DNA of 64,000 nt, from assembly GCF_008831285.2 (NCBI RefSeq), contig NC_045140.1, forward strand, positions 25,562,131-25,626,130, read 5' to 3'. This DNA is from Nymphaea colorata. Its lineage: Eukaryota > Streptophyta > Magnoliopsida > Nymphaeales > Nymphaeaceae. The notes beneath the pieces are model-generated. The model saw only the letters and a program-made list of their open reading frames with translations, was not told the origin of the DNA and searched no databases. Position 1 is the stretch's first letter. Every line of letters begins with the position of its first letter. Shown here piece after piece: positions 21,792 through 58,700 of this stretch. A program made the translations under genes and the position numbers.

Positions 21792-24700
21792 TTTGCTCCC
21801 TGATATCAAGATTGAACCTTTTGTCGTATCAGAATCCTGACTGGCTGCGATTTCAAGGGTAGTATTCCTGCAGAAATAGGAAATCTGGGAAAGTTAACGC
21901 TTCTGTAAGGACTTGGAATTTAAACGTTGTCTGTTTATTCTCGTTTGGTTTCCCACTTCATAACTTGCCTGTGCTCTTCTTTCCACATCCAGGGCACTGA
22001 ATGATAACCATTTAAGTGGCAGCATACCAGCTTCACTGGGGAGGCTCTCGAACCTTAGGACGCTTGACCTTGCATACAATGAACTCACTGGATCTATACC
22101 TATCTCATCTGGTAGTGAACCTGGTTTAGATTTGCTTTTTGCTGCAAATGATTTGTAAGTTGGACTACTCCTTCCACAGTACATTAGTGTGTCGGCTGAA
22201 AACTGAACTACCTAAGCCAAATGTTTATATGGTGTTGTAGCATTTTAAGTAATAACCAGCTCTCAGGCTCCATACCGCCGCAGCTTTTCAGTTCAAAAAT
22301 GAACCTATCACACATGTAAGTTAATCGTGTCATCATACCCCTGCAAAGAGCCTATACTTCACCTTATGTGCCCTTTTCTCTCTCTTTTTTTTTTATTTAT
22401 TTATTTTGACCTCTAGGTTGTCTTTTCTTTCTTTGAGCTCTGGGACTGACTAGTTTGTCTTCTGAAGACTATTTTATGCAAATAATTTCGCTGGTGAAAT
22501 TCCTGAAACAATAGGGCTGGTTCAAAGCCTCAAGATCCTGTAAGTGTCCAACCCGTACTTTTCAACAATGATTTTATAGCCAAGTTGGTTCAGCCCCCTC
22601 AATTCATGCTGCAATTGGTTTATCCTTTTTCCTGTTTTCTAACTTCGGCTTTTTTCTTTACAGTCGACTTGATAGGAACCAACTCGGTGGTTCTGTGCCT
22701 GGAAGCCTTAACAATCTATCTTCCATTCTTATGCTGTAAATTTCTGTGTCCACTTTTAAGTTACATTTCTACAGTTAGCTTCTGATTTTCTTCTGAAATA
22801 CAATCGTTTATTTAGGAATTTGGCAAGCAACCGCTTGATTGGTCCTATACCTGATCTTGGCAACATGGGAGACCTTTGTTATCTGTATGAGTCTCCGAAA
22901 GCCTCTTCTCAATTTAGTTTATATATGTCTCTGTTTTCATATGCCCAACTTTATGATTACACTTCAAACCAGGGATTTAAGCAACAATTCTTTTGACGCA
23001 TCACTAGCACCACCATGGCTCACAATGATGGAGTCTCTGACAACAATGTGAGTTGTTAATCGCTTTCACATTTTCCAACCTGTCATTGCATCATATAATC
23101 CATTGATGATATGCATAGAATCATGGAAAATGGAGATCTCGAAGGAGCGGTTCCGGAATCCCTGTTCAACCTACCCTCAATTCAGACTATGTAAGTACCA
23201 AGTACACGTCAACAAAGTATTTCCGACTAATCAACCAAAACACCTGTTTTTTTTTTTTTTTCTGATCTGGTCTACTTCTGTTGAAGTACAGAAAGCTGAG
23301 GAACAATTCATTCAATGGCACACTCACTTTGGGAAGAATCAACACTCAGCTCCAGCTTGTAGATTTGGAAAACAATCATATCTCGAAGTTGATGCCTGAA
23401 AATTCTTACACGAACAGCATATGGTAGGAATAACATGAAAATATTGGATATAACAGAACTTCCTTTTCCAACTCCCACAAACATGCCATTTTTCTGATCA
23501 TGCAAAATTGCAGGCTTGCTGGGAATCCAGTTTGTTACAGTTCTGATTTGAGGTCCTGCAAGACACAGATTCAGGAACCAGCGCCATATGAAACTAGCTC
23601 GAGAAATTGTGGCCGTGAATGTAAACGTGGCATGATGCCTAACCCAGAAAGCTGTGCGTGTTCGTATCCTTATACTGGAGTTCTGCATTTCAGGGCAGTT
23701 TTCTTCTCAGACTTGTCCAATAGTACCATTTTCAAGTCGCTGGAGGAGGAACTCTGGAGACAACTTCTTCTGACACCGGGCTTCGTGTCCATTTCCAGGC
23801 CAGAGTTTGATGACTGCGACCATCTAGATGTGCAATTTCGACTTTTCCCATCAAGTGGTACGTCGTTTACCAGGGAAGAAGTCATTGAAATTGGGTTTTT
23901 CCTGAGCAATCAAAACTTTGAACCACCGCATGAATTTGGACCATACTGCTTCATCATGTCAGATCTTTATCCATTTCTACTAGGTACGTGATCCTGATAA
24001 CCATGAGAAAGGATAGACTATTCTACTTTACGAACTCCTGTCCTCTACTGTATGTGTTGGTACTGACAATGGAGTTGTATCAGATCCAATTGGCCGGCGA
24101 TCTCTCAGTCCAAGCATAATCATTGGAATAGCAGTTGGTTGCTCTGTTTTGATCTTCATACTTGTTGGAGTAGGAATTTATGCCATCCGGCAAAAGAAGC
24201 GTGCTGAAAGAGCCACATTACAAAGCAGACCTTTTGGTGGGTTCCATGTTTCCCGTCTTTCTGATCCGATTGCTTGTATATGGACCCAGAAAGTGAGCCG
24301 TCTCATATGCATATGAAAGATTTTGGTCTTATTAGTTTTAACTATAAGAAACTTTCGCCTTTTGTTCAATTTCAGCATCCTGGAGAAACACGAGCACCAA
24401 AGGCAGTGGTCCAGAACCAGAAATAAAAGGAGCTAGTTGTTTTTTGTACGAAGAGATCAAGAAATTCACAAACAATTTCTCCGAAGGCAACATAATTGGA
24501 GTCGGTGGCTTTGGCCAAGTAAAGCCTATTCCTTGTCTGGTTTAGCTTGTGCAGTAGTCCTTCCAATACCTTATTCGTCGTCAACAAATTTTTGCAGGTT
24601 TACAAGGGGATACTTCCTAGCGGTGAGATCGTAGCAATCAAGAGAGCTAAAAATGGAGTCATGCAAGGTGGACTCGAGTTCAAGACTGAAATTGAGCTGC

Positions 24701-26132
24701 TATCAAGAGTTCATCACAAAAATCTAGTTAGCCTTGTGGGTTTCTGTTTTGACAAGGGCGAACAGATGCTGGTTTATGAATTTATTGCTAACGGGACCTT
24801 AACAGATTGCTTGTCTGGTATAACAGCACGAGTTTAGACATGTAATTTTTTTTTTTCTTGGTAATGCCATTTCTCTCTGAAGTTCTAACATCAATCTCTT
24901 GTAAATGAACAGGAAAAAGTAAGATACAACTTGACTGGCATAAGCGGCTTCAAGTTTCTCTGGACTCAGCTACAGGACTAGCTTATCTTCATGAGCATGC
25001 AAATCCTCCAATCATTCACAGGGACGTGAAGTCCGCAAACATTCTTCTTGATGAGGACCTGACTGCAAAGGTTGCAGATCTTGGTCTATCAAAGCTCGTC
25101 CCGAACGTTGCCAAAGTGCATATCTCCGGTCAAGTTAAGGGCACCCTGGTGAGTCTCGCTGGTTTATCATGTGGTTCCTAATTTTATGGTGGACGAACAG
25201 AGATGTCGGCATGGATAATATGAATATATGCTTGTATTATGCACACATTCAAGAAAATTTGTGTCTTTTCAGCTGTTTTTTATGTTCCAAACTCGTTTAC
25301 TACTTCGGATAAGCGTTTTCGAAGGGCTTTCTTTTTATTCTTACTTCAAAAGTGTCTGCATTGCACATTTATTAAAGTTTTTGTTGCTTCAGGCTCAATC
25401 ATTTTACCGGAAAGGGGAAAACAAAGAAGATTTACGATTTACCAGCCTCTAGGTGCTTGATTTTTTATTGACTTAGAACACATCCATACTTGAAATTGGC
25501 CAATTAATCACATGCTTTCTGCTATGTGGGTTTCAGAGAACAAAATTGAAAAGCCCAAATCAAGAAAAGCATTCCAAACTTATAAATAAACCACTAATGA
25601 TGACATCTGTGCATGTGGCTGTGTGACCTCACTGCAGGGGTACCTGGATCCTGAGTATTATACAACTCAGAAGCTGACGGAGAAGATAGATGTGTACAGC
25701 TTCGGCGTGGTCATGATGGAGCTGATAACAGGGAAGAAACCAATCGAGAGGGGCAAGTACCTCGTCCGTGAGCTTCAATTAGCCATGGATAGATCCAAAG
25801 AACTCTATGGCCTCGAAGACCTACTGGATCCAGCCATCAAGAAAGAAGGTGCTCTTATTGGATTCGAGAAATTTGTGGATTTAGCCTTGAGGTGCGTTGA
25901 GCAGACAGGAGTTAACCGGCCAAGCATGCGAACGATCGTAATGGAACTGGAAAACATTTTGCTGAAGGCGATGGACATGAACCCTGCAACGGCCATATCA
26001 TCTTTTCTTGAATCCACATCAAGCGATCTTCATCATGGATACAATTATCCACTCTCTATCAGTGGGACAGAGAGCCATACCTTCAGTAGCAGTGATGTCT
26101 ACACATTCTCGAAAACAATTGAACCAAAATAG
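20754..26132 (+). CDS. LRR receptor-like kinase, LRR-VIII-1 (HPCA1/CARD1-type) family
   Basis: Nineteen exons encode 958 aa: 20754-20847, 21233-21353, 21451-21519, 21653-21727, 21833-21904, 21993-22154, 22241-22315, 22468-22539, 22664-22735, 22816-22884, 22973-23047, 23119-23190, 23292-23423, 23514-23983, 24084-24236, 24376-24518, 24598-24817, 24913-25148 and 25638-26132. All junctions are GT-AG and phases agree. Order: signal peptide (about 1-25), LRRs mostly one per 69-75-bp exon, a Cys-rich juxtamembrane region with Cys419, Cys423, Cys434 and Cys436, one membrane helix (about 555-578) followed by RQKKR, then the kinase: GVGGFG loop from 636, VAIK Lys657, HRD 751-753, DLG 771-773, GYLDPEYY from 795. 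In Arabidopsis HPCA1 four extracellular cysteines at nearly the same positions sense H2O2, so a peroxide or quinone receptor role is plausible but inferred. DLG replaces the usual DFG. Intact, with a decayed tandem copy downstream. Confidence 0.93.
21737..21792. repeat. (CT)n microsatellite in intron 4 of the receptor kinase
   Basis: About 55 bp of CT dinucleotides with one TTT interruption directly follow the donor of exon 4. The corresponding intron of the decayed copy (after 33442) has only about nine CT units, so the tract has expanded or contracted since duplication. Confidence 0.9.
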
Positions 26133-34971: not shown

Positions 34972-37357
34972 TCATTCCTTTTGCTAACAGAAATGCCTTT
35001 CTTATCTGTATGAGTCTCTAGAAACCTCTTCACAGTTTAGTTTGTATATGTCTTTTCATATGCTCAACTTTTTTATTACACTTCAAACCAGGGATTTGAG
35101 CAACAACTCTTTTGACGCATCACTAGCACCACCATGGTTCACAATGATGGAGTCTCTGACAACATTGTGAGTTGTTAGTCGCTTTCTCATTTTTGAATTT
35201 GTCATTGCATTCATCTAATCCGTTGATGATATGCATAGAGTCATGGAATATGGAAAACTGGAGGGACCGGTACCAGAACCTCTGTTCAGCCTACCCTCAA
35301 TTCAGACTATGTAAGTACCAAGTACATGTCAATAAAGTATTTCCAACTAATAAACTAAAACACCTGTTTTTTTCTGATCTGTTCTACTTCTGTTTAAGTA
35401 CAGAAAGCTGAGGACAATTTATTCAATGGCACACTCAATTTGGAAAGAATCAATACTCAGCTCCAGCTGGTAGATTTGGAAAACAATCATATCTCCAAGT
35501 TGACAAATTCTTACACGAACAGCATTAGGTAGGAATAACATGAAAATATTGGATATAACAGAACTTCTTTTTCCAACTCCCACAAACATGCCATTTTTTC
35601 TGATCATGCAAAATTGCAGGCTTGCTAGGAATCCAGTTTGTTACACGTCTGACTTTAGGTCCTGCAAGCCACAGATTCAGGTACCAGAACCATATGAAAT
35701 TAGCTCAGGAAAATGTCACAAAGACATATGTCCATCTGCCATGAAGCCTAATCCAGAAAGATGCGCGTGTGCATATCCTTTTATTGGAGTTCTGCATTTC
35801 AAGGTAGTTTTATTCTCAGACTTGTCCAATAGTGCCATATTCAGGTCTCTGGAGGAGGAACTTTGGAGACAACTTCATCTGTCACCGGGGTCAGTGTCTC
35901 TTGGGCAGCCAGAATTTGATTGCAGTGACGATGTAGATGTGAAATTTGAACTTTTCCCATCAAGTGGTGTGTCCTTTACCAGGGAGGAAATCATTGAAAT
36001 TGGGTTTATCCTGAGCAAACAATACTTTGCACCACCGCCTGAGTTTGGACCTTACTGCTTCATCATGTCAGACGCCTCCGGTGCTTATTTATTTCAAGGT
36101 ATGTGACCCTGATAACCATGAGAAAGGATATACTTGTGTACTTTATGAACTTGTGCCCTCTGCTGTACGTATTGACACTAAACAAGAGCATTGTATCAGA
36201 TGGAATTGGCCGGCAATCTCTCAGTCCAAGCATAATCGTTGGAATAGCAGTTGGTTGTTCTGTTTTGGTCTGCATGCTTACTGTCGCAGGAATTTATGCC
36301 GTCTGGCAAAAGAAACGTGCAGAAAGAGCCGTATTACAAAGCAGACCTTTCGGTAATGGTTCCAAGTTTACTGTCCTACTGATCTAATTGGTTATATATG
36401 TCCCGAAAAGGGAGCCGTTTCACATGCATACGGAAGATTTTGATCTTGTTAGTTTTAGCTACATGACACTATCAATTTTTTGTTGAATTTCAGCATCCTG
36501 GAGAAACATGAGCACCAAAGACAGTGGTCCAGAACCGGAAACAAAAGGAGCTAGGCATTTTTTGTATGAAGAGATCAAGAAATTCACAAACAATTTTCCT
36601 GAAGGCAAAATAGTATGTTCACATAGTTTGTTCTTCCAACACCGATGTTGCGGCTGAGTTTTATTTTGGTCTAACCAAATCCTATCCAATAGCCTATCTC
36701 CTTTGATCAACATAACTTTCCATCAAATCCAAATTTCTCTTTTTTTTTTGATAAAAAGCTCCTCCAGTCATATCTGTAGCTTTTCTCTATGAGTAATAGT
36801 TCGTTTAAGTGCTCTTAAATGCGGCTTTCGTATTATACAACATTTTGGTAATCGATCCAATAGATTTGAATTGGTCTTGGTCGAAGTTGAAATTTGTAAA
36901 ATGATTTAAAAAATTATAAAAAACATAAAAATGAAAAACCATGAAAATAAGCGGCAAAAAATGTTCTGATCGATTCACGTTGAATTCATCGATCAATGTG
37001 TTTGACTGCTCCTGACCTAAAATCTTCAATATTTGAAAATCATGAATTTAGAGTCAGACCCTTTTTATCCTACTTCTTTTTAATGCAAAAAATAAAATAA
37101 AATGATAAAATAATAATTTCCAGTATACATCTTAAGTCTGATGTTAGGTTCCTAGTTTCATGAACTATAAATTTTAAACGTATGTCACTCGGATCTAGAT
37201 CAAATCCATGAAAATGCAAAACAGTCAAACTCTAGTTTGTCTCATTAAAAAAAAATCCGTTGATTCATATTAAGATTAAAATAATTTAATTTTTACAATC
37301 CATTAATGATACCAACATTTGGGCATAATCGTGTTTCTCATATATGCTATTAGCTAA

Positions 37358-39549: not shown

Positions 39550-42500
39550 ATGGACTTTACTGGTGCATCCGTCTCTTGCCACTCCATAGGTTCCGTATCC
39601 AGCAATGGGATCTTCGAGGGAGAGATGCCGCTCAACTTCTTCGTTCCGCGCCTTGCCTTCCAAGTGGCCTTTATTTCCTTCCTCAACTTAGCCATGCAGG
39701 AGCTGCTCAGGCCACTGGGTCAGAGCAGATACATCTCCAGCCTCATTGTAAGATCTCCGTCCTTCCTCGCCTCTTTGTTGAGATCGATGAGATCAAGTGC
39801 AATCATGTTTAATTTGCCCCAGAAAATTAGCATCGATAATCCAAAGAGACTTTTGCTATTTGGTCGAACAACAAATCATATTTTAGTGTGTGTGTGCGTG
39901 AACAATGCATTCCCCGCAATCAAACAACAACCTTTTGCTTAACGTGGGCTGCATATATGTTTTGGTATCTTCAACAGGCTGGTCTGTTACTGGGTCCGTC
40001 GTTCCTGGGCCATTTCGCACCTGAGCTGGTGGACAAATACCTGTTCCCGGAAAGTGGGACGCAGGCCCTGCAAGTGGTGGTTCAGATTGGGGTGCGGTTC
40101 TGGTACTTCCTGTTTGGAGCTCAGATTCATATTGGCCCCATGTTGAAGAAGATGACGACGAAGGCACGCTGGATAGGAACGACTTCCTTAATGGCACCCC
40201 TCCTTCTCTGCTACCCGGTCGCCTCCCTTGTCAACAAGATCGTCCCCGCCACCATGCACTGCGACATCAAGCCTCTGTTCTTGGGCATGTACTTCGTCAT
40301 GACCAACGTCAGCGTCATCGCCGGCGAAGTCATCGACCACGAGCTCCTCGACTCCGACTTGGGCAGCACCGCCATGAGCTCAGCCATCTTCATTGCAATT
40401 GCCTCGGCACTGCCAATAAATGGCATTCTTTGGCTTGTTCCTGTAGAGGGGAAGCCATTCGACGCCCACTGGAGGGTTCTGTGTGGTAATCTCTCTTGCC
40501 CTCTAGATTCTTAAGCAGCTAGCAATTGGATTGCAGCTGAATTCGTTTCTGGTCAGTAATTGTCTCCAAGTTTATTTATCGAAATCTATGATCTTAAATG
40601 GCGGTACATCTTGAAATTGCATGCAACTAAATCCATGCATCCCTGCAATTATGCATACCAGATTAAAGCAATGCTCCTTGCTCATGTTATGTTACTGCAG
40701 GATCTGCGTTCGTAGCATTTCTATGTTTTGTTGCCCGTCCGATCGTGAATTGGATCGTCCAGCACACGCAGAACGAGGAAGATGTAAAGGAGCACCACGT
40801 CTGTGGAGTATTGCTCGGCGCCCTTGTGGCATCAGTAGTTACGGAGTCGATCGGTGCGCATGTTACGTTCGGCGCGTTTACCTATGGTCTCATGATGCCA
40901 CACTGCGCGCTCACCACGGTCGTGACCAAGAGGCTGGAGGACTTCAACACCATGGTGCTCATGCCTCCTTTTTTTGCCCTCATTGGTCTCACCATCAAAC
41001 TGCAGTCCATGTTCACCAGTCCAAAGGACTGGACAATGGTACTCATCCTCTTCCTCCTCTATCTTGGCAAGATTGGCTTCATTGGCCTCGCAGCATCCCG
41101 CTACAACTTGCCCAAGAATGAAGGCATCTTGCTTGGTGTTCTCATGTCCTCTAAGGGAATTTTGGACATCATGTTGGTGACTTGGTCCACAGGAAAAAAG
41201 GTGCTTGACATTGGAATAATTTCATATTGTACCGGCTTGAAATGTAGTATACTTATCTTGTTGAACTTACATGGTGACACATATATCTCTGACACCTTTT
41301 GAATCAACGAAATTTCAGCTTAATGGGGCGGATGGTGGGGAGTTTTCAATTCTCATGGTTGGTATCGTGGTAACGAACTTGATCATCGGTCCAACTGTTT
41401 CCTTCCTCTACAAGCGCCCAACGTTGCAGCTGCACAGAGGCTGCCGTTCCATCCAGGAGCTCAAACCGAACTCCGAGTTGCGCATTCTTAGCTGCGTATA
41501 TGATCACGAGACCATCCCGGCCCTAATAAACCTAGTCCATGCCACCCCTGCCACCAAGATGTCGCCCGTCAACATCTCAATCCTGCATCTGGTACACGCC
41601 ACGACCCGTGACTCGACCATGCAACAACAGAGCTTCGAGACCGGCGGATTCTTCCGTGGACACGACACTAGCTCCGTGGCTGAGGCCATGAAGATGCAGA
41701 AGTGGACCAACGGTACCACCACCAACCTCCAAACCAAGCTCTCCTCATACTCCACCATGCCGGAACACATCGTCCACGCCGCCGAGTCCGGCCGCGCCAC
41801 CATCACAATCGTCCCCTTCCACATGAGAAGGGTATTGGGCTCCCACATTGGAGTGTCCAATGACACGGTTAGGAACATCAATATGACCGTGCTGGAGAAG
41901 GCTCCATGCTCCGTGGGTGTATTTGTGGACCTGGCCTTTGCCGGAGCAACAACCAAACCCTTCCAGAATGTGGCTGTTCTCTACTTTGGTGGGCATGATG
42001 ACAGGGAGACCCTGTTCTATGCATCAAGAATGGCGGAACAAGAACCCACAAGGCTCACTGTGGTGAGATTCCTGCCCCCGCAGGACGCAGCATCCACACC
42101 TCCCCCTTATTCTAGCTTCGTGAATGAAGACGATCTGTGCATACATAGGTTTAGATCCATGGCCGAAGGCAAGCTATGGATCAGTTACACAGAGAAGTTT
42201 GTCAGCTGCGGCGCAGACATGGTCACTGCCATTCAAGGAATGAACAAGATACATAACCTTTTCATGGTGGGGAGGCGCCATGGGCCGGCCACCGCACGGA
42301 TGCTGTCGGGGCTGGAGGCATGGAGCGAGTACCCAGAGCTGGGGACCGTCGGCGACCTGCTGGTATCACCGGATTTCTCAGCGCAGGCAGTGCTGGTGAT
42401 GCAGCAGCACACATGGGCGGAGGACTATGAAGTTGAATTAGGTGATGGTAGAGAGAGCGTTCATGATCTTCATTCTCAGGAGCAAGGTTACCGCTATGTT

Positions 42501-42623
42501 CTGCATGACCAATCAAAGGACAGTGCGCCTCTGCGTCACAGAGCGCACAACTCGGCCATCGATCACAATGAAGTCCAGTTTGATGAGTTTGGATGGAACT
42601 GGAACATGCGTGCTGGCTTCTAA
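39550..42623 (+). CDS. CHX-family cation/H+ exchanger (CPA2), first of three tandem copies
   Basis: Four exons: 39550-39747, 39978-40485, 40701-41200 and 41319-42623, giving 836 aa. CHX proteins are endomembrane or plasma-membrane K+(Na+)/H+ exchangers with about 12 helices and a long cytosolic tail. Exons 1-3 plus the start of exon 4 encode the membrane domain (about 1-432). The rest is the soluble C-terminal domain, with the CHX signatures LYFGGHDDRE and WSEYPELGTVGDLL and the end QFDEFGWNWNMRAGF. By memory it is nearest the CHX15 group, but divergent. The CPA2 Asn-Asp pair is replaced by Ile205-Ala206 (SSAIFIA) and the VGxExD motif by GAQIH (113-117). Lys and Asp in SSKGILDI are kept. The ATG at 39550 is the first good start after the TATA box. 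The frame is intact, so it looks functional but with altered ion-coupling chemistry. Confidence 0.92.
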
Positions 42624-44751
42624 GTTCCACTCTGTCAAACGCAGAAAGAAGGAGAGATGGCGATGCAAGTCACGGGTTTCGAGCTAAATGCCGTCATCCT
42701 GAAGCTAGTGCAAATTGCGAAAGCTGTGGAGAAAACATACAATGCCTTTGATCTTTGATCTCCTTGAAGCGAGACGCAGTCCTGTTATCTTGATCAAAAT
42801 ATTTGCGTCAAGCAGGAAACTCCAATCCATGTCTGGAAAATGTAATTGCTTCACTTGATTTCTCGGCCTTCAAATCGGAGTTGACTTTGTACAATTCTGC
42901 AAATATCTTGAATCAACAAAAGAAAGGAAGAAATGCATCACTTGATTTCTCGGCCTCAAATCGGAGTTGACCTGTACAATTCTGCAAATATCGTGAATCG
43001 ACAAAAAAAGGGAAGAAATTAACCAAAATGCAAAGGGGACTAATGGAAGGCGCAATTAAAGTTACAAGCGAAAGATACCCACTGTCTTTAAACACATAAA
43101 TGAGAGAGGATCACATAAAGTTGAACCATCTCAAGAACACAAGAGAACAGGAAAACGGAGGAGAGTCTGATTTGTATAACTTCTCAATTTCTTCCACAAC
43201 AATCATACTTCTGTGAATCAAGTAATATACTTGAAGCTAAAAGAGTCTACCAACCTAAAGCACTGACATTAAAGTTGATTCACACTGCATACATCACGCA
43301 AAGCATCGAAATAGATTAAACCACAAACATCGATCATAAGATTGAACCACTCATTCGAAAAAGCATCATGCATCATTCAACAACAGATTCAGTTCTCGCC
43401 CGAATTGAACAACAGATTCATTTAAGGTTTACCTATTTGGTTCTTTTCTATCAACTTGCTCCAGCTTTTTATTTTGTTGCACAGTAAAAATACGAAGACC
43501 AACTGTTTTAGTTTTAGTCTCCAAGGTATTACTTGTTTTTTTCTTGGACTTCTTTCAGTTTTTTCATGCGCAAAATAAATAAGGCCCCAAAACACAGCAG
43601 CTAAATGCAAATTTCCTTAAGAAAAGACAATTTATTGAAACATTAAGTTGGAATAAAGTCAAAAAGAGAAAACATCAACTCAACTTAACTCTACTCCAAC
43701 TCATTCATAAATGCTCGACATATTAAATTAAAAGAAATGAATTAAAACGAGTTAAGTGAGTCAAGCTCTAGCTCGATGCCTTATAGTGGAATTGAGATTC
43801 GACTCGACTTATGTGCAGTCTTAGCAAACAACGCATCGCAGTTCAAGTCTTATGTTTCGTCGAGACATTCAAGTATATTCGATAAATTAAAATACATTTG
43901 TTTCTTTTCATAATTTTTACGTATTTCCAGTTACATATAAACGATATTCAGACAGCTGGAACATAAAGTTTTCAAAATTTAGTCAATCACTTGGATCTCG
44001 ACGTCTCAAGCCCCCATTATAGCATGAATTATATATGCTCAAAACTGTGAGACTTCCAAATGCAGAAGGGACCCAAAGAATTTGGCTTGAGATCCAAACC
44101 TGTTCCATTTTTTGTCCCAAATGATCAACGATGAATCACCCTTCCAAACAAATATAAGATATGGAGCCGCGTTTTTTTTCTTTCACAAGCTTTTACATAC
44201 TGATATTAGAAAGCCACTTAGCTCCAATGGAACATTGACCAGGCAGCCGAACACCATCTCTCTCTCTCTCTCTCCCACCCTCTCAATTTAGGCAGAAGCT
44301 GTATTGAGCACATGGGCGGCCGTTTATTTAGGAGGTCACACTGACCAAACAAGCCAACCATAACCATTTTCGTGGTTCCTCATTGTCAACAATAGCGGGG
44401 CTTTTCAGCCACTCGTTAAGTCATAGAAAAGAAGAAAAAGAAGAAGGAGAGGAGGAGGAAGAAGAAGAAGAAGAAGAAGAAGAAGCAAGGGAAGCCTCTG
44501 TTGGGGAAGACACACCTGGGTTGAGAGACTCAGTCGCTCGCCCAAGGTGGTGATCAAACCCCCATGGTTAGGACCCCAACCTCCATACACTAGACTTTAC
44601 AAAACAGCCGATCGATCCTCATAGAGCTCAGTTAACTGTGAATGCGCATCGATCAATCAAAGATTCGACCTGCGTTCGTTAGGCCACGCCCCTCTGCAAG
44701 TCGACCTTGATCTCCGACGAACATACCCATCAGAAAGTTGCCGCATTGAAA
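42624..44751. other. Spacer between CHX copies 1 and 2
   Basis: No gene seen. A roughly 95-bp phrase (cttgatttctcggcct, gagttgac, acaattctgcaaatat) occurs at 42853-42915 and again at 42941-43005, a diverged direct repeat. A fold-back-like gagtcaagctctagctcga stretch lies near 43750. A (GAA)n tract is at 44426-44485. No clear TATA box for the second gene was found. Confidence 0.5.
44426..44485. repeat. (GAA)n microsatellite in the CHX copy 2 promoter region
   Basis: About 60 bp of imperfect GAA/GGA triplets lie about 270-325 bp upstream of the second CHX start codon. They could be in the promoter or 5' UTR. Confidence 0.9.
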
Positions 44752-47700
44752 ATGAACTCCAGCGATCCTCAGCCTCCTTGTATGTGGATCCCAGGATGGG
44801 TCAATAGCAATGGGATCTTGGCGGGGGACACGCCGTTCGATTTCTTCTTCCCGCGCTTCGCTTTCCAATTGATTATCGCTTCATGCATGAGCCTCATCAT
44901 GCAGCATCTGCTCAAGCCGCTGGGTCAGACCAGATACATCTCCAGCCTCATTGTGAGTTCTTTCTTCTTGCTCACCTATATATTTGTTTCTCTCTGGCCG
45001 GTCGACGCGATCAGGTGGGGTGCCCATGAACTTGGACAAGGGATTTCCCTTTAGGTTGCATTTGTGGGAGATGCTCAGTTTGTATAAATTTGAAATTCAT
45101 GCTACATATTTAAAACCTCCAATTTAAAGTTAGACCTTCGATCTGCAGTGAAACAAAGGCAATCTTAAGAAGTTGGGGAGACTTTAGGAAACATGAAATG
45201 GGGGATATATCTGACTCTGTAATCAATTTTAGTAGGAAATTAACATGCCCCATGAGCTTTGTCCTATCACGATAATCAATGACTCATGCAATCACTGAAA
45301 ATTCGATTGTAATGACTATCTATGATTGAAAGGGTTATCAATATGAGGTTTTCTCCATAAAGAGGGAGAAGAAATATATATATTTGGGATGTATGTTGTG
45401 TAATATGTATGTGCGTATTAGAGGTAATCGATGGTTCTGAGCCTTTTGGCAACTGAGCAGGGTGGCATGCTCTTGGGCCCAAGTTTCTTGGGCGGAATAG
45501 CACCGGAAGTGGTTCAGAAGTACGTGTTCCCAAAGGACGGGGTGCAAATCCTGGACATGGCATGCCGTTTCGGCCTGTGTTTCTGGCATTTCTTGATGGG
45601 AGCTCAGATTCACGTCGGCCCCATGATGAAGAACGTGCCGCGGAAGGCTGTATGGATAGGAATGACTGCCCTGGTTTCACCGCTTCTTCTCGGCTTCGTC
45701 AGCAGCTTTTCCGTCAACATGCTTCTCCCCGACAGCATGCAGTCCCATCTCTACCCTTATTTCATGGGCTTGCCTTTCGTCACCACCACCCTCACCGTGT
45801 TGGCGGGCAACGTTGTCGACCACAAGCTCCTCGGCACCGAGATGGGCAACCTGGCCATGTCGTCTGGCATCTTCATTGCAGTTGGCGCCGTAGTTCCCCT
45901 TAATATCATGGTCTGGTGTCTTCCTCCCCACGGAAAGCCATATAATCCGCAATGGAAGCTTCCATCCGGTAAACAAAACTACTTTGACACTTTGGTTTTG
46001 TGTCTGTGTCTATATTTGCTCTTCCGATGGCGGCAGGTTTTGACTTCACATTGTTGGTTAGGTTAGGGGTTTAATAAAGAAGCGAACCCGTTGCTGATGC
46101 TATTTTGCTGCCAGGTGCAATGTACATAGTATTTATTTTTTTCGTGGCACGTCCGATACTGCACTGGATAGCCCGGCGAGTGCCGAACGAGGAAGACGTA
46201 AAGGAGTACCATGTTTCCGCCATTATCCTGTGGGCGGTGGTCGGGGCCACGATCACGGAGGTATTGGGTGCTCACATCACCGTCGGCGCGTTCTTCGCCG
46301 GCCTGATCCTACCGCACAGCGCGCTGACGACGGTGGTAACCAGCAGACTGGAGGACTTCAACTCCACGGTGCTGATGCCTCCTTTCTTCATAATTATCGG
46401 TCAGCAAGTCAATCTCCTCAACATGTTCGAGAACAGCAAAGGCTGGTTTTTCGTGCTCATGCTCCTCATCGTTTACCTGGGGAAAGTTAGCCTTATTGCG
46501 TTCGTCGCATCTTGGCATAGCGTTCCCCTCAACGAGGGCCTCTCCATTGGCTTCCTCATAAGCTCCAGGGGAATTCTGGACATCCTCCAACTCTCTTGGT
46601 CCACAGTGGCAAAGGTAATATCGCCGGAATTAACTAAGACAATCCTAGATCAGAGTTTAAAAGCCAACAGCAAACAGTGATGTTAAGTAGATCAGATTAA
46701 TTATCATATTCGATTTATCAGATGTTCACATGTTTGCTCTCGATTTATCAGACGCCATTCAAAATTTGATGAGCGTGTTGCATGCTTGCCTTTTTATCAT
46801 TTTCATGCATTTCAAAAGCTCTTGTGCCAACAAAATGTTCAACTGTTTCTTCACAATCCATGTTTTTTCAGCTTAACAATGCGGATGAACAAGAGTTTGC
46901 GATCATGTTGTTTGGTACCATGGTGACGAACTTGATCATCGGCCCCGCCATTTCCTTTCTCTACGACCACCCTCTGTTGTTACGGCACAAGGGGAGCCGA
47001 GCCATCCAGGAGCTGAAACCGGACGCCGAGTTCCGCATTCTCGGCTGCATCTACGACCATCACACCATCCCGAGCCTACTGAACCTGGTTAAGTCCAGCC
47101 ACGCCACCAGGTTCTCCCCCATCTACCTCTCCGTCCTCCACCTCGTCCACGCCACGTCCCGCGAATCGACCGTGCAGCAGCAGAGCCTGGAGAACAGCGG
47201 GATCGGAAAGGGACGGGATGACAGCTCCCTGAACGCGACCTTCAGCAAGCACAAGTTGGCCGGCTGGGTCAGCCTCAGCCACCACACCCAGCTCTCCTCA
47301 TACTCCACCATGCCCGACCACATCTGCAACGCGGCCGAGGCCAGCCGAGCCACCTTCCTGATCGTCCCCTTTCATATCAGGAAAGTGGTGGGCAGCCACA
47401 GCGGATTGGCCAGCGACCCGATCAGGAACATCAACCTGAACGTGCTGGAGAACGCCCCCTGCTCCGCCGGTGTCCTCGTGGACATGGGCGTCGCCGGGAC
47501 TGGGACCACCAACAACTTCCAGAACGTCGTCGTCCTCTTCTTCGGCGGACCCCACGACCGGGAGGCTCTGACCTACGCATCCAGGATGGCTCAGCACGAC
47601 CCCGTCAGGCTCACCGTGGTGAGGTTCACGCCGGCCGCGCCGTCGTCCACCGTCAGCTACCAGAATGAAGACGATCTCTTCATACAGCGATTTAAATTCC

Positions 47701-48173
47701 TGGCTGACGCCAACCGATCGATCACATATCTGGAGCATCAAGTCGGCAGCGGCGCAGACACTGTGGCGGCCATCCAGGGGATGGACAGGGCGTTCGACCT
47801 CTTCATGGTGGGGAGGCAGCACGGGCCGGCCGTGTCGGCGCAGATGCTGTCGGGCTTGGAAGCGTGGAGCGAGTACCCGGAGCTGGGCACCGTCGGCGAC
47901 CTGTTGGTGTCGTCGGACTTTAAGGCGACGGCGGTGTTGGTGGTGCAACAGTACTCGTGGGCGGAGGACTACGAAGCGGTGGAGGACGAGTGCAGGTTCC
48001 CCGTTCATGATGTTCAAAAGTACGAGAAGCATACTCGTCACCACATAATGCAGCAGGAGCAGCCGATCTCACGAGGCGCGCAGTTGCGTGCGAGAAGGCA
48101 CAACGCGACTCGTCAGAATGGAATCCAGTTTGATGAGTTTGGATGGAACTGGAACCTGGGTGCCGGATTCTGA
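44752..48173 (+). CDS. CHX-family cation/H+ exchanger (CPA2), second tandem copy
   Basis: Four exons: 44752-44952, 45461-45968, 46115-46614 and 46872-48173, giving 836 aa. Exons 2 and 3 are 508 and 500 bp, exactly as in copy 1. The membrane domain occupies about residues 1-433, then comes the C-terminal soluble domain with LFFGGPHDREALTYASRMAQ, WSEYPELGTVGDLLVSS and VVQQYSW, and the end QFDEFGWNWNLGAGF. At the Asn-Asp site it has Ile206-Ala207 (SSGIFIA), and GAQIH (114-118) at the VGxExD site. SSRGILDI is retained. Start: a longer open frame begins without an ATG, and the ATG at 44752 (aaaATGAAC) matches the N-terminal length of the other copies. The last exon is strikingly GC-rich at third positions compared with copy 1. 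Presumed role: monovalent cation transport in an internal or plasma membrane; substrate not determinable. Confidence 0.92.
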
Positions 48174-48840
48174 GGAAGGCACCCATCATCTTCTCCTGAG
48201 GAAGAAGGAGGTGAACCAGGATTTTGGTCTGCCATTAGATCCAGTTTTGGAGCTAAAATCCTATCCTTCCTAAATGCTTTCTTTTCTTTTTATTTAGGGA
48301 GGCTCTTGAATCAATCAAGGATATAGAGAATCTGTACATTGATCGAGGAGAGTATGCAGCTGAGGTCGGAAAAGTAGTCTACGTTGGTTGGGATACCCCG
48401 AATGTGAGCACTGGGGACTTTGTCTTTGCTTATTCTTTGTAACTTGTACAATTTTTTTTTACTGTTCTTTTTTTCCCTTCCATTAATCTACGAGTGGGGG
48501 TCTGCGTAACCCCAGTTTTTTACCATAAATATTCGTGGGTGAAGTTAGAATTTTTTTTTTTTATGAAGCATTAAATTTATGATTAACATTTTTTTTAATT
48601 GATTATAATGCTTGAATCTTTCAAGGCTGCCTTCTATATAACTGAACTCAAATTTAAACACTGGGTTCTTTAGAGCCCTACCAAGACGCCAATAAAAATG
48701 AAAGAACATAGAGGAGCCTCGGACAAAGTTGAAAAAGTGATTTTTCTTTTCTTTTGAAATTATCCTTAAACAAGGCAAAAATCTTTAAAAAAAAAAAAAA
48801 AAATGCCCCTCCCGTTTGGAGTTCATTGAGCCCTCCTAGT

Positions 48841-49266
48841 AGGGATATCAATGAATGGAATATGCATATTTATTTGATTCATCGGATGTTTGCAAATTCG
48901 TGCAGGAATTTGGATTGGAATATGAATGAACAAAGGGATCTATACCGCAAAGAAAATCCGATTATTAAATTTATGATGTGAATCTGCTCCAAATCCGACT
49001 TTTATTTTCATGCCCGAATCCAATTTTTAAGCAGACACTAGAATTCAAACTCCATTCCATTATGGTATGTCAAAAACTAAATTTCAAAATATCTAGATAT
49101 TGGATACATAGGATATTTATTTGAAGTTGAATCTAGATATGATCGGGTGTTTATTTAAAAAATAAGTTTAAACCCAAATCCGAACCAAACTGATTTCTTA
49201 ATGAAATGTTATTTTTTCTAATATATATGAATTTTTTTGTTCTGAATTCAATTCATTGACATCCTT
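48841..49266. mobile_element. Fold-back MITE-like element, copy 3 (complete)
   Basis: It starts AGGGATATCAATGAATGGAA and ends gaattcaattcattgacatcctt, which is the inverse (AAGGATGTCAATGAATTGAA). The interior alternates gaatttggattgg and ccaaatccgac-like words able to pair. It is about 426 bp and non-coding. Confidence 0.6.
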
Positions 49267-50372
49267 AACGAAGCGCACAGAGGAGAAGAAACAAATTAAA
49301 AAGTACCATTAAGAACCCAAAAAAAAAAAAAAAAGTGTGGCTTAAATGTATGACAAGTGATCAGGTTGCCATCTGATTCGGGCGAGATTGTTGGATCATA
49401 CCCGATCCATACTCTAACTAACATGGCGGAAGATAAAAGCGTTACATTTAAAGGGCGAACAGATCCAAGAACCAGAGATCCAACTCAATATGAAAGCGGC
49501 TCACGAAAGTTGATGGAAAAATCTAATATTGCAGCAACACAATTAAGTAAAATTTTAGAAATACAGCTAAAATATAGAAACACTAAAAATTAAGTCTTCT
49601 AGATGATATAACAAAAATATATATATATATATATATACAACAAAGTTTGTGCATCATGCTCAAAAAATAATCTTCTATTTATTGAAAGTAGACACAAATT
49701 ATTATTATTATTATTCATTTGTTTCATAGTTTTGACGGATTCACGAGCAATTCAGCGGAATTCCCGTTCACCAATTTTTTTTATTTTTTTTTTTCATTTC
49801 TCGCGTTGTCGCGTGTTGCAGTGTTTCACCTTCTAAATTTAGAGAAGCCGTTAAAGTCTCTTCTTTTCGCCGCCTATTTCTGATGGCCGTTAGGCTCCAC
49901 AGTACAGCTCGTTCCGGCCACCTGGATCCGATCCACTGCGATCTTGGAACCGACCCGGGATCTAATCCAGACGGGTCCACTAAAAGAAAATAAGATCCGA
50001 TTATCAATCAGATCTGGATCCGGCATATAATCAGATTTTTCTTTTTACCGGCACAAAACACAGGGCCATAAGACACTCGGAACCGGGTTTGGTTTCGGCA
50101 AATCATACCCGCACCTGGACAGATCTGATTTGTGAGGCCCCGAGAAGCCTAGGTTCGATCGGGGACCGGATCCATTTGACAGCCGGAGCTACCAGAACCG
50201 GCCAGTTTTAGGCAAAGAAATTTCCGGTACCTGAAAAGGGAGGCCCATTCACTAGAAATTGGGTGGCTTCGTCCCCCAGATCCCCTGTTGGGTACAACCG
50301 CATCGAGTGCAGACCTGTCACCTGAATGCCATCCCTCTGTCGATACAGAGGAGCACAGGCAGGCTTGGCTGC

Positions 50373-50380
50373 TATATAAG
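50373..50380 (+). promoter_or_regulatory. TATA box candidate of the third CHX gene
   Basis: TATATAAG lies 181-188 bp before the ATG at 50561, almost the same distance as the TATA candidate in copy 1 (182-189 bp). This supports a conserved core promoter. Confidence 0.6.
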
Positions 50381-50560
50381 AGCTTAGCTCATACCGGTAC
50401 CCAACCACGGAACCTCCACATTCTTCTCATTGTCAGCAGCAGAGGAGGCCGCGAGAAACTTAGCTCATCCATACAGAGAGGAAGAACGAAGAAGGCGTTG
50501 AAATCAAGAAACGCCAAGAATCAGGCCGGCTTTCATCTTGCCGGTCGGTTTTCGGTGAAG

Positions 50561-50950
50561 ATGAACAACTCCAGTTTTCTGATTTGTGATGACCTGGGAA
50601 AGGTGACTAGCAATGGGCTGTTCGCGGGAGAGCGTCCGTTCCACTTCTATCTGCCACGCCTCACCTTCCAATTGACGGTTCTTTCGCTGGTGACGCTCGC
50701 AGCACAGGTGGCGATGAAGCCAATGGGGCAGACCAGATACGTTGCCAACCTAATTGTAAGCGCTCGGTTCCCCGATCTCTTTATTTAATTGTTAGGACAA
50801 AGGCTTTTGGATCATCGGCAATCTTCGCCGCTTAAGGAATCCGATCACATCATCTTTAGATTCGAAGAGATGTGCCATATAATGCCTTGTGTAGAGTTCT
50901 TTCTAATGCAGGACAGACCTTGATTTATAAGAAAAGTTAAATATGTTGAG

Positions 50951-50986
<36 letters not shown>

Positions 50987-53537
50987 ATTTCCTTATGGCC
51001 TGACTGCAACTTTCGGCGACGGAACAGGCCGGCGTGTTGATCGGTCCAACTTGCCTTACGCACATAATACCGGGGGTGACGAAATTCCTGTTCCCACAGA
51101 ACGGGCCGCCGCTCCTGGAATTGGTGCTCCATTTTGGTCTATGCTTCTGGTACTTCCTGATGGGGGCTCAGCTTCATCCGGGCCCCATGCTGAAGAATGT
51201 GTCTGCGAAGGCTGCACTGATAGGCATGACTTCCATGCTCTCCCCTCTCCTTCTCTCCTACCCCGTCGTCATCATCGTCAACAAGCTCGTCCCCGAGCAC
51301 ATGCAGAGCGGAGTCGCCCCTTGGTTCATGGGCTTCTATTTCCTCCCCACCACCGTCACAGTCTTGGCCGGCAATGTCATCGACCACGAGCTCCTCGGCA
51401 CCGATGTGGGCAACCTGGCCACAACCGCCGCCATCTTCACCTCGATCGCCGTCGTTCTGCCATTGAATGTGTTGCTCTTGGTGATTACTCCTAAAAGGGA
51501 GGATGAGATGTTCTATCAGTTCCCGCTGGGGAAGTTCCTGTCTGGTAAGGCTTATCTTTCTACCTGCCTTATAAATTAGGCAGCTAATGAAAGTGTGTCT
51601 CTCATTTAAAAATAATGATCTCCCCCCCCACCCCCACTGCAGGTATAGGTTTCGCCGCCTTTTCATTTTTCGTGGCCCGTCCGGTGATCAGTTGGATAGC
51701 CCGGCGAATCCCAAGCGAGGAGGATGTGAAGGAGAACCATGTCTGCGGAGTGCTTCTTTGGGCCGTAGGGTCGGCCGCAGCTACCGAGGTTCTCGGCTGC
51801 CGGATCACATACGGCGCCTTCTTGGCCGGTTTTGTCCTACCGCATAGTGCACTCACGACGGTGGTGACGAAGAGGCTGGAGGACTTCAACACCACGCTGC
51901 TGATGCCTCCATTCTTCGCCGTCGTCGGGCTCAACACCAACTTGCTGTCCGTCATGAACGGCGGAAAAGGGATAACGCTGGCTTTCATAATCTTGCTCAT
52001 TTACGTGGGCAAGGTTGGACTGGTTGCACTCGCCGCATCCAGTAGCAACATCAGCACAAATGAAGGCTTGATGATGGGCGTGCTCATGTCCTCCAGGGGC
52101 ATCCTCGACATCCTTATGCTGTTTTGGGCCTCAACAAGAGGGGTATGTTATATATATATATATATGCTTAATTAATTAAATCATTTTACTACTGCTTATG
52201 TGAAACCCAGAAACCTTACTTCCCTGCCAATTAAATTTCAGATTGCCCGGACGGGAGATGAAGAGTTTGCGACTTTGGTCCTTGGGATCATTGTGCTGAA
52301 CATGATGATCGGCCCCGCCATTTCCTATCTCTATGAGCGCCCTATGGTGCTGCTGCACAAGGGTTGTCGAGCCGTGCAGGAGCTCAGACCCGACATGGAG
52401 CTGCGCATCCTCGCCTGCCTCTACGATCACCACACCATCCCCAGCCTGCTGAGCCTGGTCAAGGCCACCAACGCCACCAAGTTCTCCCCCATCTACCTCT
52501 CCGCGCTCCACCTCGTCCACGCCACGTCCCGCGAGTCGACCGTGCAGCAGCAGAGCCTGGAGAGCGGCGGGTTCGTCCGGGGCGGCGACACCGGCTCCTT
52601 GAACGCGGCCTTCATGATGCACAAGTGGCCGGCGTGGGTCAACTTCAACCTCCAGACCAAGCTCTCCTCTTACTCTACGATGCCAGAGCACATCTGCAAG
52701 GCCGCCGAATCCGGCCGCGCCACCCTCGTCATCATCCCCTTCCACATAAGGAGACTGCTGGGCAGCCACACCGGCGTCTCCAACGAAATAGTTAGGAACA
52801 TCAACCTGAATGTGCTGGAGAAGGCCCCCTGCTCCGTCGCCGTGCTTGTGGACATGGGCATCGCCGGCGCCCGCACCAACGTCTTCTTCAACGTGGCCGT
52901 CCTCTTCTTCGGCGGCCCCCATGACCGGGAGGCCATGTCCTACGCTTTGAGAATGGCGGACGTTGAGGGCCTGAGGCTCACCCTCGTGAGGTTCACGCCT
53001 GCGTCTGGTGCATCCACCAAACCTCTGCCCGTTTCCGGCGAGATGACGGAAGATGACATTTTCATAGCCAGATTTAGAACCATGTTCGAAGCAAGGAGAT
53101 CGGTTACCTACATGGAGAAGGAGGTTGGCTGCGGCGCCGACACCGTGACCGTAATCCAGGGGATGGATAAGACCCACGACCTCTTCATTGTGGGTCGGCA
53201 CCACAGAGGGGCGGCCGCGCAAATGTTGGCGGGGTTGGACACGTGGAGCGAGTACCCGGAGCTGGGGACGGCGGGGGACCTGTTGGTGTCGCCAGACGTT
53301 TCGGCGCCGGCAGTGCTGGTGGTGCAGCAATACTCTTGGGGAGAAGATGCTGAGGAGGAGACTAGGGAGAGCAGGCATGGCATCGGACATGGCGGCCAAA
53401 CTTATCGTGGCTATGTGCTGCATGATCAGGTAAGGGCTTCGGCGCCTGCGCCTGGGAGAGGAAGCAACGTCGTCTCTCAACATGCAGTCCAGTTTGATGA
53501 ATATGGATGGAACTGGAACTTGCGCGCTGGATTCTAA
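50561..53537 (+). CDS. CHX-family cation/H+ exchanger (CPA2), third tandem copy
   Basis: Four exons: 50561-50755, 51028-51544, 51643-52142 and 52242-53537, giving 835 aa. Exon 3 is again exactly 500 bp. Exon 2 is 517 bp, three codons longer near its end (TPKREDEMFYQF loop). The soluble domain shows LFFGGPHDREAMSYA, TWSEYPELGTAGDLLVSP and VVQQYSW, and ends QFDEYGWNWNLRAGF. The Asn-Asp pair is replaced by Thr203-Ser204 (TAAIFTS), different residues from the other two copies, and the VGxExD site reads GAQLH (111-115). SSRGILDI is kept. The open frame upstream of 50561 has no ATG, so this start is well supported. Codon use is strongly GC-rich in exons 2-4. Apart from the replaced motifs it looks fully functional. 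Confidence 0.92.
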
Positions 53538-55757: not shown

Positions 55758-58700
55758 CTACCCTTTCCCCAAAACTTGCCTCGGAAGGAAAGGGGAAGGA
55801 AGAGTGAGAGCGTCACACCTCCCTGGGGTCCACGAAGATGGAGCTGCCCGGCGGCGACTTCGTCCAGTCGCCCACCTCGCCGTCCGAGTAGCCTTCCCCG
55901 CCCCCAGCCGCTTCACGCACCACACGTCCTCGAACGACAGCCTCGCCCAGTGGGGCACCCCCGCCCTTAGCGGCTCGCAGCATGCCACTTCCGCCACCAC
56001 CACCGCCGCCCCCCTCTCCCTTCCCAGGTTGTGCGCCCACCCGCACAGCCCCCTTACCATCCTCACTGCCTCCTCCCCTTCCCCAGCCATCCCGTACAGG
56101 AACAGGCAGCCGAACGGCCGGAAAATCTCCGGGGCCGACGGTATCTGTAGCCACGGCAGAGCCCTGTCCAGGACCCTGGTAGCGCGCACCGCCGCCACCG
56201 TCGCCCGCGACACGCCCGCCAGCTTGAGGCGGAAGAGGCCGCCCGAATCCCAGACGGAGACCGCCGCCCAGGACGGCGGCGGGCAGGCACAGAAGCTCGC
56301 GAAGTCCACGGCATTGGAAGACGAGGGCACGGCGAGGAAGGTGCCGAGGGTGAGGGGGTTCGAGAGGACGCGGCCGATGTCGGTGGGGAAGAACTCGACC
56401 GTCGAGGAGCGGGAGAGGTAGAGGGTCTCTGCCTCGGATGGGGAGAGACGGAGGAAGCGGACGCCGCGTGGGAGGGGCTTCCGGTGGGCGTGGACGGGCT
56501 GGACCAGCACGGCGGGGGCGCGGAACTTGGAGTAGCCGAGGCGGCGGGTGAAGAGGCTGAGGGAGGCCTCGTTGGAGCCGGCGGTGGCCATGTACGCGTA
56601 CTCGGCGCCGTTGTCGCGGAGCCAGGACTCGAGCCTCGTCACAAGCTTCAGCCCAATTCCCCTTCGCCTGAAAACACAGATTTGTGGAAGTGAGATTTCT
56701 CTGACACCCGGAGAAATGGGCTTTTGTTGGAAGAGTGAGATCCTCTTATTAAAGAAATAATATGAGAAATTAGCTTTCTGTGATTATTCTATCGATGTGA
56801 GAAGAATACGTTGGAGAGTGATCTCTCCATGAAGAAACACTACATTGTTTTTCAGTCACGCTAAGATTGGTGGTAAGAAATGAGAAGAACTATGGAATCC
56901 AGTTGTTGCAGAAGGGAGCTCTTCACGGAGTGATAATCGATTGGTGGCTAAGAAAGATGAACGGTTTAACTTGGACGAGAAGGATTTTCTTGAGGAAATG
57001 TCGGGATGCTGCTTGGTTTCATCCTTCAGTTGTGCCTCCGGAGGGAGTTTTTTTGTCGGCAAGAAACAGAGTGGCTTTTCTTTCTTCTTCTCCATATTCT
57101 GTGTTTTTCATTCAAGGGATGTGGTTACGAGAGCAGAGGAATGTCGGGTTTTCTTGCTCGAATTTCGACATGATGGAGGTGGTACGACGACGGAAGCCTT
57201 CTCGTTCATGTTGATGAATGGTGATCTAAATTGGACGAATGATTTCTTCGAGAAGATGATAAAATTGATCTTGTTCTCTGCTTACAGATGCTGGGCATCA
57301 ACAAAAGAATGGAACAGAATGAAGAACGTTTTCATTCGGAAAAAAGGACCGTTAGCGTAGGAAATTAAGACCGATACTTAAAGAGAAACCCTGAGACGCG
57401 TTTGAAAGCATGGATTAGAAAGTCTTAGTCAGGCAGAATACGCTTTTTCCTGTCACTTCTAAGTTCTATCCTACCCACCACCAAGAGTAGGACAGAAATT
57501 TTGGAAAAAGAAAGGTTTTCAAAAATGGATTGGCGGTCATCCACTGTGTTTTGGGCCTCGACGACATCATTCGAGCGCACCAACAGTGAATTTTGGTGCT
57601 GTATGTGGGGAAGGGAAGCTGTTCTTTGTGTTGCCTCCGTTGCTTCAAGTGGAAAAATAAAAGAAAGAGCCCACCCATAGTGCTTCTGAACAGAAATGAT
57701 ATACACAGAGAGAGAGAGAGAGATGCAAACTTGCAGAATGTGATAATTGCTAAAGCCTAAAAAAGATCAAGAACCTCCCAAGGAAAGTCAGGAAGGACGG
57801 AACAAACAAGATAATGAAAATCAAGAAATGGCATCGTTTAAAACAGAGGAAAATAGCAAAAACTAATGCCATCATCAATGTAAGGTAGAGCAGAGAACGC
57901 ACTGTATATCGCATTACAGAATAGAGACACAACAGTGCAGAGGTTAAGTGGAGAATGGTAATCAATATTTTTCTATTTTAACTTCCCTTCCTGAATCTTG
58001 TTCTAGAAATTCAAATTAAAACCCACAATCTAAATCCAAAGAACAAAACAGAAGACAAAATCCTGCGGTTTAAAATTTAAAAGGGTAAAAACCATTAGAA
58101 TGGTAAATATCAGAAAAATCCAAAATGAACTGAAATTAACTTGGTTGTCCTTTACCATCATATGGAAAAAGCCACTTACGGTGCTTGGGAAATTTATCAA
58201 CCTTACATGGTACCCACGATTGGTGTTTAGAGAATGACGACAGATGCAGAGAGAGGAGGAGGACAGAGATCTTCCGAAAGAACCTATACTACCATTTTCT
58301 GAACTTTATAATTCTGGAGCTCGAGAGAGAGAGAGAGAGAGTACCACCAACAACATCCAGGGCCCCCTCCTTAAGGACAGCTATAAACAAAATAAAGTAT
58401 ATGTATATTTAAATAAGAACAAAAGGAAATAAGATGAAGATGAAAAAAATGGGGGGGAAAAAAACCAAGTAAACACACAGCCAAGCACTCGAAACAGGGC
58501 AAAATCAGAAAGGTGCTGCAATAAATAACAGCATCTGGATTTTCAAAGAAACAGGACAAGAAGCCAGCCGAAAGCCAGGACCAACGCATCAAAAAGCAAG
58601 ATGGAAGCATCGTCTTCTTCTATCAATATTTCATTTTACCCTGTTGAGAACGGAACTACAAAAAAGGTTCTCGACAAAGAAACAAAACGAGGAAAAAGAA

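Follow-up and report, generated by a model that had tools for sequence, protein, structure and literature searches.

Three tandem CHX genes of Nymphaea colorata lack the TM5 aspartate and belong to a six-gene clade that probably lost it once

The aspartate of transmembrane helix 5 (TM5) is considered central to the antiport mechanism in carriers of the NhaA fold, and a locus of Nymphaea colorata raises the question of what such a carrier may be when this residue is absent. The window analyzed here, a stretch of 64,000 nucleotides (NC_045140.1, positions 25,562,131 to 25,626,130), is part of the 407.8 Mb genome of this plant, which is represented by 783 contigs. Three genes of the plant CHX family, designated A, B and C, are arranged in it head-to-tail on the + strand at 39550-53537:

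39550..42623, + strand: CHX gene A, exons 39550-39747, 39978-40485, 40701-41200 and 41319-42623, 836 residues
44752..48173, + strand: CHX gene B, exons 44752-44952, 45461-45968, 46115-46614 and 46872-48173, 836 residues
50561..53537, + strand: CHX gene C, exons 50561-50755, 51028-51544, 51643-52142 and 52242-53537, 835 residues

All three models consist of four exons separated by GT-AG introns and contain no in-frame stops. The encoded proteins are 54.5-56.5% identical in pairwise comparisons, and each of them was matched by the Pfam model Na_H_Exchanger (PF00999) with E-values of 2e-31 or better. Tail domains CHX17_2nd and CHX17_C were above cut-off in all three, the former barely so in A (27.2 vs 27 bits), and the Usp model additionally matched in C.

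An earlier sequence-only reading of this DNA had claimed that the Asn-Asp pair of CPA2 proteins is missing from A, B and C, and the residues it quoted proved to be exact: SSAIFIA in A, SSGIFIA in B and TAAIFTS in C. Gene models and alignments assign the following codons to the Asn-Asp site:

40392..40397, + strand: Ile205-Ala206 of A
45875..45880, + strand: Ile206-Ala207 of B
51439..51444, + strand: Thr203-Ser204 of C

For so distant a family, where membrane domains of the triplet are only 27-29% identical to that of another CHX locus of the same genome (L044), one might suspect an error of alignment, with the true Asp residing elsewhere in TM5. However, when the triplet is aligned with ten further CHX loci of the genome, TM5 contains no gap; L039 and L043 have one inserted residue, which falls just ahead of the TM4 core. 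A profile built from 9 of 13 CHX loci and searched against PDB matched NapA (5bz2, E 1.5e-29) and KefC (8bxg, E 1.2e-20). Its alignment to NapA (5bz2, 4bwz) and KefC (8bxg) runs from TM4 through TM5 without gaps and sets the Asn-Asp columns opposite D156-D157 of NapA. Triplet residues were placed opposite NapA by means of the CHX alignments and then of this profile alignment, which sets none of their acids opposite D156-D157; protein C alone, searched against PDB with phmmer, gave no match up to E 1. Moreover, neither Asp nor Glu occurs within residues 194-222 of A or in the corresponding segments of B and C, so that no shift of register along the helix can restore the pair, and a misalignment is therefore hardly credible. 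In the CPA motif, position 7 (TM5) is Ala, Ala and Ser in the triplet instead of Asp, while position 8 (TM10), to be occupied by Lys or Arg, is Lys in all three proteins. Thus, the loss of the TM5 Asp from the triplet is confirmed by sequence comparison.

Is this loss peculiar to the triplet, as that reading implied? The triplet does lack the residue, but the same absence also marks three other loci of the genome. At least 13 CHX loci were found, which may be a lower bound, since only the best candidates were scored, and the PF00999 search of the genome listed further matches elsewhere, outside these 13. The ten loci beyond the window are represented by our own gene models, two of which (L043 and L045) lack exon 1, one (L048) lacks the last exon and one (L046) does not start with Met. 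The TM5 Asp stands at the second position of the pair in seven of the 13 loci listed, as Asn-Asp in L043, L044, L045 and L048, Val-Asp in L039 and Ser-Asp in L046 and L047. It is absent from the other six, namely the triplet and L040, L041 and L042, where the site reads Thr-Gln, Ala-Gln and Met-Gln, respectively. Bacterial comparison was based on 41 distinct rows, which represent 46 open frames in 44 loci and were taken from the best-scoring part of a search in 188 genomes of one phylum and from further searches, which makes them a selection rather than a survey of all CPA2 proteins; three of the loci were contributed by a single-protein search of genome contigs. The second position in these rows is occupied by Asp in 39, by Glu in one and by a gap in one. 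Since Asp is thus present in 7/7 other CHX loci and 39/41 bacterial rows, chance does not account for the pattern observed in the triplet. No relatives of the protein encoded by exon 3 of C were found in viral contigs.

Some individual loci deserve mention in their own right. In the bacterial Na_H_Exchanger protein L063 Glu substitutes for the TM5 Asp. L039 (G000 C1:6.86 Mb), which lies outside the Asp-less group, combines Val-Asp in place of Asn-Asp with His at the TM3 Glu site. L040 is located at G000 C5:1.08 Mb, L041 and L042 at C6:1.18 Mb and 1.19 Mb; being a few kb apart, the latter two may form a second tandem pair.

Six genes without Asp do not require six events. In the tree of 13 plant and 8 bacterial rows, built without the two site columns, the six Asp-less loci formed one clade with support of 100/100, and therefore a single change of state suffices to account for the loss. 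After removal of nine diagnostic columns, with ten bacterial rows, support was 100/99 irrespective of whether the long branches L046 and L047 were included; long branches and an odd letter composition of winB were flagged by the tree program in both analyses. The 13 CHX loci, all of them from this genome, separated from the ten bacterial rows. The pair L039/L043 appeared as the starred sister of the six in two of three trees (the 100/100 tree and the one without L046 and L047), while its position was not resolved in the nine-column-removed tree retaining these branches. The six genes and L039/L043 all have a phase-1 intron interrupting the membrane domain, which is absent from our models of L044, L045, L046, L047 and L048; intron places and phases of the triplet are shared with L039-L042. 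The Asp was probably lost once, in the common ancestor of the six.

A missing core residue might also mean that the genes are early pseudogenes or that their models are wrong, and the latter concern has some ground in that the models of ten other loci are our own. Yet splice sites of the triplet are canonical, reading frames are open throughout and, as mentioned, intron places and phases recur in L039-L042. When neutral substitution was simulated at 0.1-0.35 per site, the mean number of stops acquired by a gene was about 6 to 21, while none was observed, although the lowest single run also ended with 0 stops (gene C at the lowest rate, 200 runs). The ratio of nonsynonymous to synonymous substitutions (dN/dS, NG86) within the triplet was 0.37-0.47, values that are rough because dS is high (0.71-0.90) but remain below 0.5. 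Coding constraint on the triplet is therefore clear as judged from these comparisons, which agrees with the earlier statement that the genes are intact; their decay is very unlikely, and pseudogenization or faulty models can be given almost no weight as an explanation of the missing residue.

If the genes are maintained, the surroundings of the lost residue become informative. Core residues were found by a column scan and then counted in the 13 plant loci and 41 bacterial rows. One TM3 position is Gln in all six members of the clade and Glu or Asp in 6/7 other plant loci and 39/41 bacterial rows. In TM4 the Arg site holds Gly, Gly, Gly, Asp, Asn and His in the six, compared with Arg in 5/7 other plant loci and 37/41 bacterial rows, and the Pro site of this helix holds Ser or Thr, compared with Pro in 7/7 and 34/41, respectively. 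Other elements are retained: the TM10 Lys, opposite K305 of NapA and present in 41/41 bacterial rows, is kept in 6/6, as are a basic residue (Lys/Arg) of TM11 and an Asp four residues past it. For the triplet these positions are:

40122..40124, + strand: TM3 Gln115 of A (column scan and count)
45605..45607, + strand: TM3 Gln116 of B (column scan and count)
51169..51171, + strand: TM3 Gln113 of C (column scan and count)
41069..41071, + strand: TM10 Lys359 of A, retained (aligned with NapA K305)
46483..46485, + strand: TM10 Lys360 of B, retained
52011..52013, + strand: TM10 Lys361 of C, retained
41165..41167, + strand: TM11 Asp391 of A, candidate for the remaining core carboxylate
46579..46581, + strand: TM11 Asp392 of B, candidate for the remaining core carboxylate
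52107..52109, + strand: TM11 Asp393 of C, candidate for the remaining core carboxylate

The six proteins also end in a motif like W-N-W-N-L-x-x-G-F, which was not found in any of the seven others, although the model of L048 is truncated and the pattern was defined after inspection of the ends. The two halves of the clade are on average only 32% identical in their membrane domains, and since the core residues are fixed in spite of this divergence, selection on a working core is suggested.

Near the helix crossing the TM11 Asp is the only acid common to the six, and it might be supposed to take over from the TM5 Asp, so that ordinary cation/H+ exchange persists. However, 6/7 Asp-bearing plant loci also have an acid there, and the residue is thus no newly gained substitute; besides, the aligned position of NapA is Gly. 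Loss of the TM5 Asp abolished activity in the CPAs tested (PMC10421325, PMC6181914), and we consider such a replacement rather improbable. Among CPAs this Asp shows 94% conservation, and its essential role was demonstrated repeatedly (PMC6181914); both D185N and D185L variants of AtNHX1 are inactive (PMC10421325), and with D163N in EcNhaA the positive charge of the TM10 Lys stands alone (PMC6181914). Because the residue is so conserved and essential in tested members, the six-gene clade is probably not a canonical exchanger. The sequence-only reading was thus reasonable in regarding Asp-based exchange by the triplet as unlikely.

What the proteins do instead can be approached only tentatively. 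The reading that we put forward, at not quite an even chance, is that the carboxylate site was dismantled and rebuilt within a CHX subclade with ion handling kept. The ion/proton site of the NhaA fold would have been taken apart once, in the common ancestor of the six genes, giving way to a polar core that is largely free of charge. The proteins would retain the fold and the motions of CHX carriers and go on handling an ion, though not by canonical Asp-based cation/H+ antiport; the movement of this ion would be uncoupled from that of protons, or else the TM10 Lys and the TM11 Asp would provide the coupling. A rebuilt, moving core is favored over a bare membrane anchor because the core Lys, the TM3 Gln and the TM11 pair are fixed at 32% identity. 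A bolder version, namely a switch from cation/proton antiport to proton-uncoupled permeation of ions, perhaps anions, centered on the lone buried lysine of TM10, is a long shot.

The main rival is a regulatory role: the membrane domain of these pseudo-transporters would move no ions and would serve the cytosolic tail as an anchor, a partner in dimerization or a sensor, and the proteins may thereby regulate an active CHX or trafficking. This seems unlikely on balance, yet deserves serious attention. Conserved carboxylates of both TM3 and TM5 are missing from all six proteins, the tail with CHX17_2nd and CHX17_C is present in 3/3 of the triplet (with Usp in C), and the C-terminal motif, with the reservations given above, is confined to the clade. 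Within the triplet the tail is 60-66% identical vs 49-52% for the membrane domain, and dN/dS is higher in the membrane domain (0.38-0.54) than in the tail (0.29-0.38) for all three pairs. On the other hand, polar and charged residues of the core are fixed across the clade, which would be unexpected for a mere anchor. Membrane-domain-specific relaxation was considered as a sign of lost transport and rejected: the Asp-bearing pairs L039/L043 and L046/L047 have an equally low membrane-to-tail identity ratio, so that lower conservation of the membrane domain does not discriminate, and the reverse ratio was observed only in L044/L045.

Several points nevertheless weigh against a rebuilt carrier core. 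The higher membrane-domain dN/dS leans towards a regulator, all dN/dS values of the triplet being rough, as noted. The TM4 Arg is absent also from 2/7 Asp-bearing loci, and the TM11 acid, as said, accompanies the TM5 Asp in most of them. Retained core residues could be structural, and, given the common ancestor of the six genes, their linked changes count as a single evolutionary association rather than as six.

The combination of features sets the triplet apart from its closest known systems to different degrees. With the plant CHX family it shares the Na_H_Exchanger domain, the CHX17-type tail domains, the TM10 Lys and the TM11 basic-Gly-x-x-acid arrangement, and it differs in the replaced Asn-Asp, in Gln for the TM3 Glu and in the lack of the TM4 Arg and Pro. 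In AtCHX17 the residues concerned are Asn200, Asp201, Glu111 and Lys355; AtCHX13 deviates at the Asn-Asp site yet keeps an acid. L044, L045 and L048, which we take to be of the AtCHX17-20 kind by general resemblance rather than by comparison with named sequences, are distinguished from the triplet by its phase-1 membrane-domain intron and distinct C-terminal end. The nearest relatives, L040-L042, are its sister group, likewise having no Asp, Gln in TM3, no TM4 Arg and the same C-terminal end; they have Gln vs Ala/Ser at the Asp site and Pro vs Thr in TM4. L039 (Val-Asp) and L043 (Asn-Asp) share the phase-1 intron but keep the TM5 Asp and do not have the C-terminal motif. NapA of Thermus and KefC of E. 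coli have the profile match and the TM10 Lys in common with CHX; at the site where the triplet has no Asp they carry Asp-Asp and Gln-Asp, respectively, and NapA chains of about 390 residues are devoid of the CHX tail.

Elsewhere in the window, + strand frames 23434-23991 and 35504-36106 look alike by eye, the latter having no Pfam match. A kinase-domain exon at 25590-26132 is perhaps part of a duplicated receptor-kinase gene. The - strand frames 6146-7489, 13868-15478 and 55758-56783 correspond to Pfam models of F-box, family 8 glycosyltransferase and GNAT acetyltransferase, respectively.

Among the literature matches listed, which comprised titles and the beginnings of abstracts, there was no Asp-less CHX group. 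A clade that is open, duplicated and constrained, has neither the TM5 Asp nor the TM3 Glu and yet retains the TM10 Lys offers a natural experiment on the residues that couple protons to cations. Uncoupled permeation, if true, would be a change of transport mechanism within the plant CHX family, and the clade cautions against calling every CHX gene a cation/H+ exchanger.

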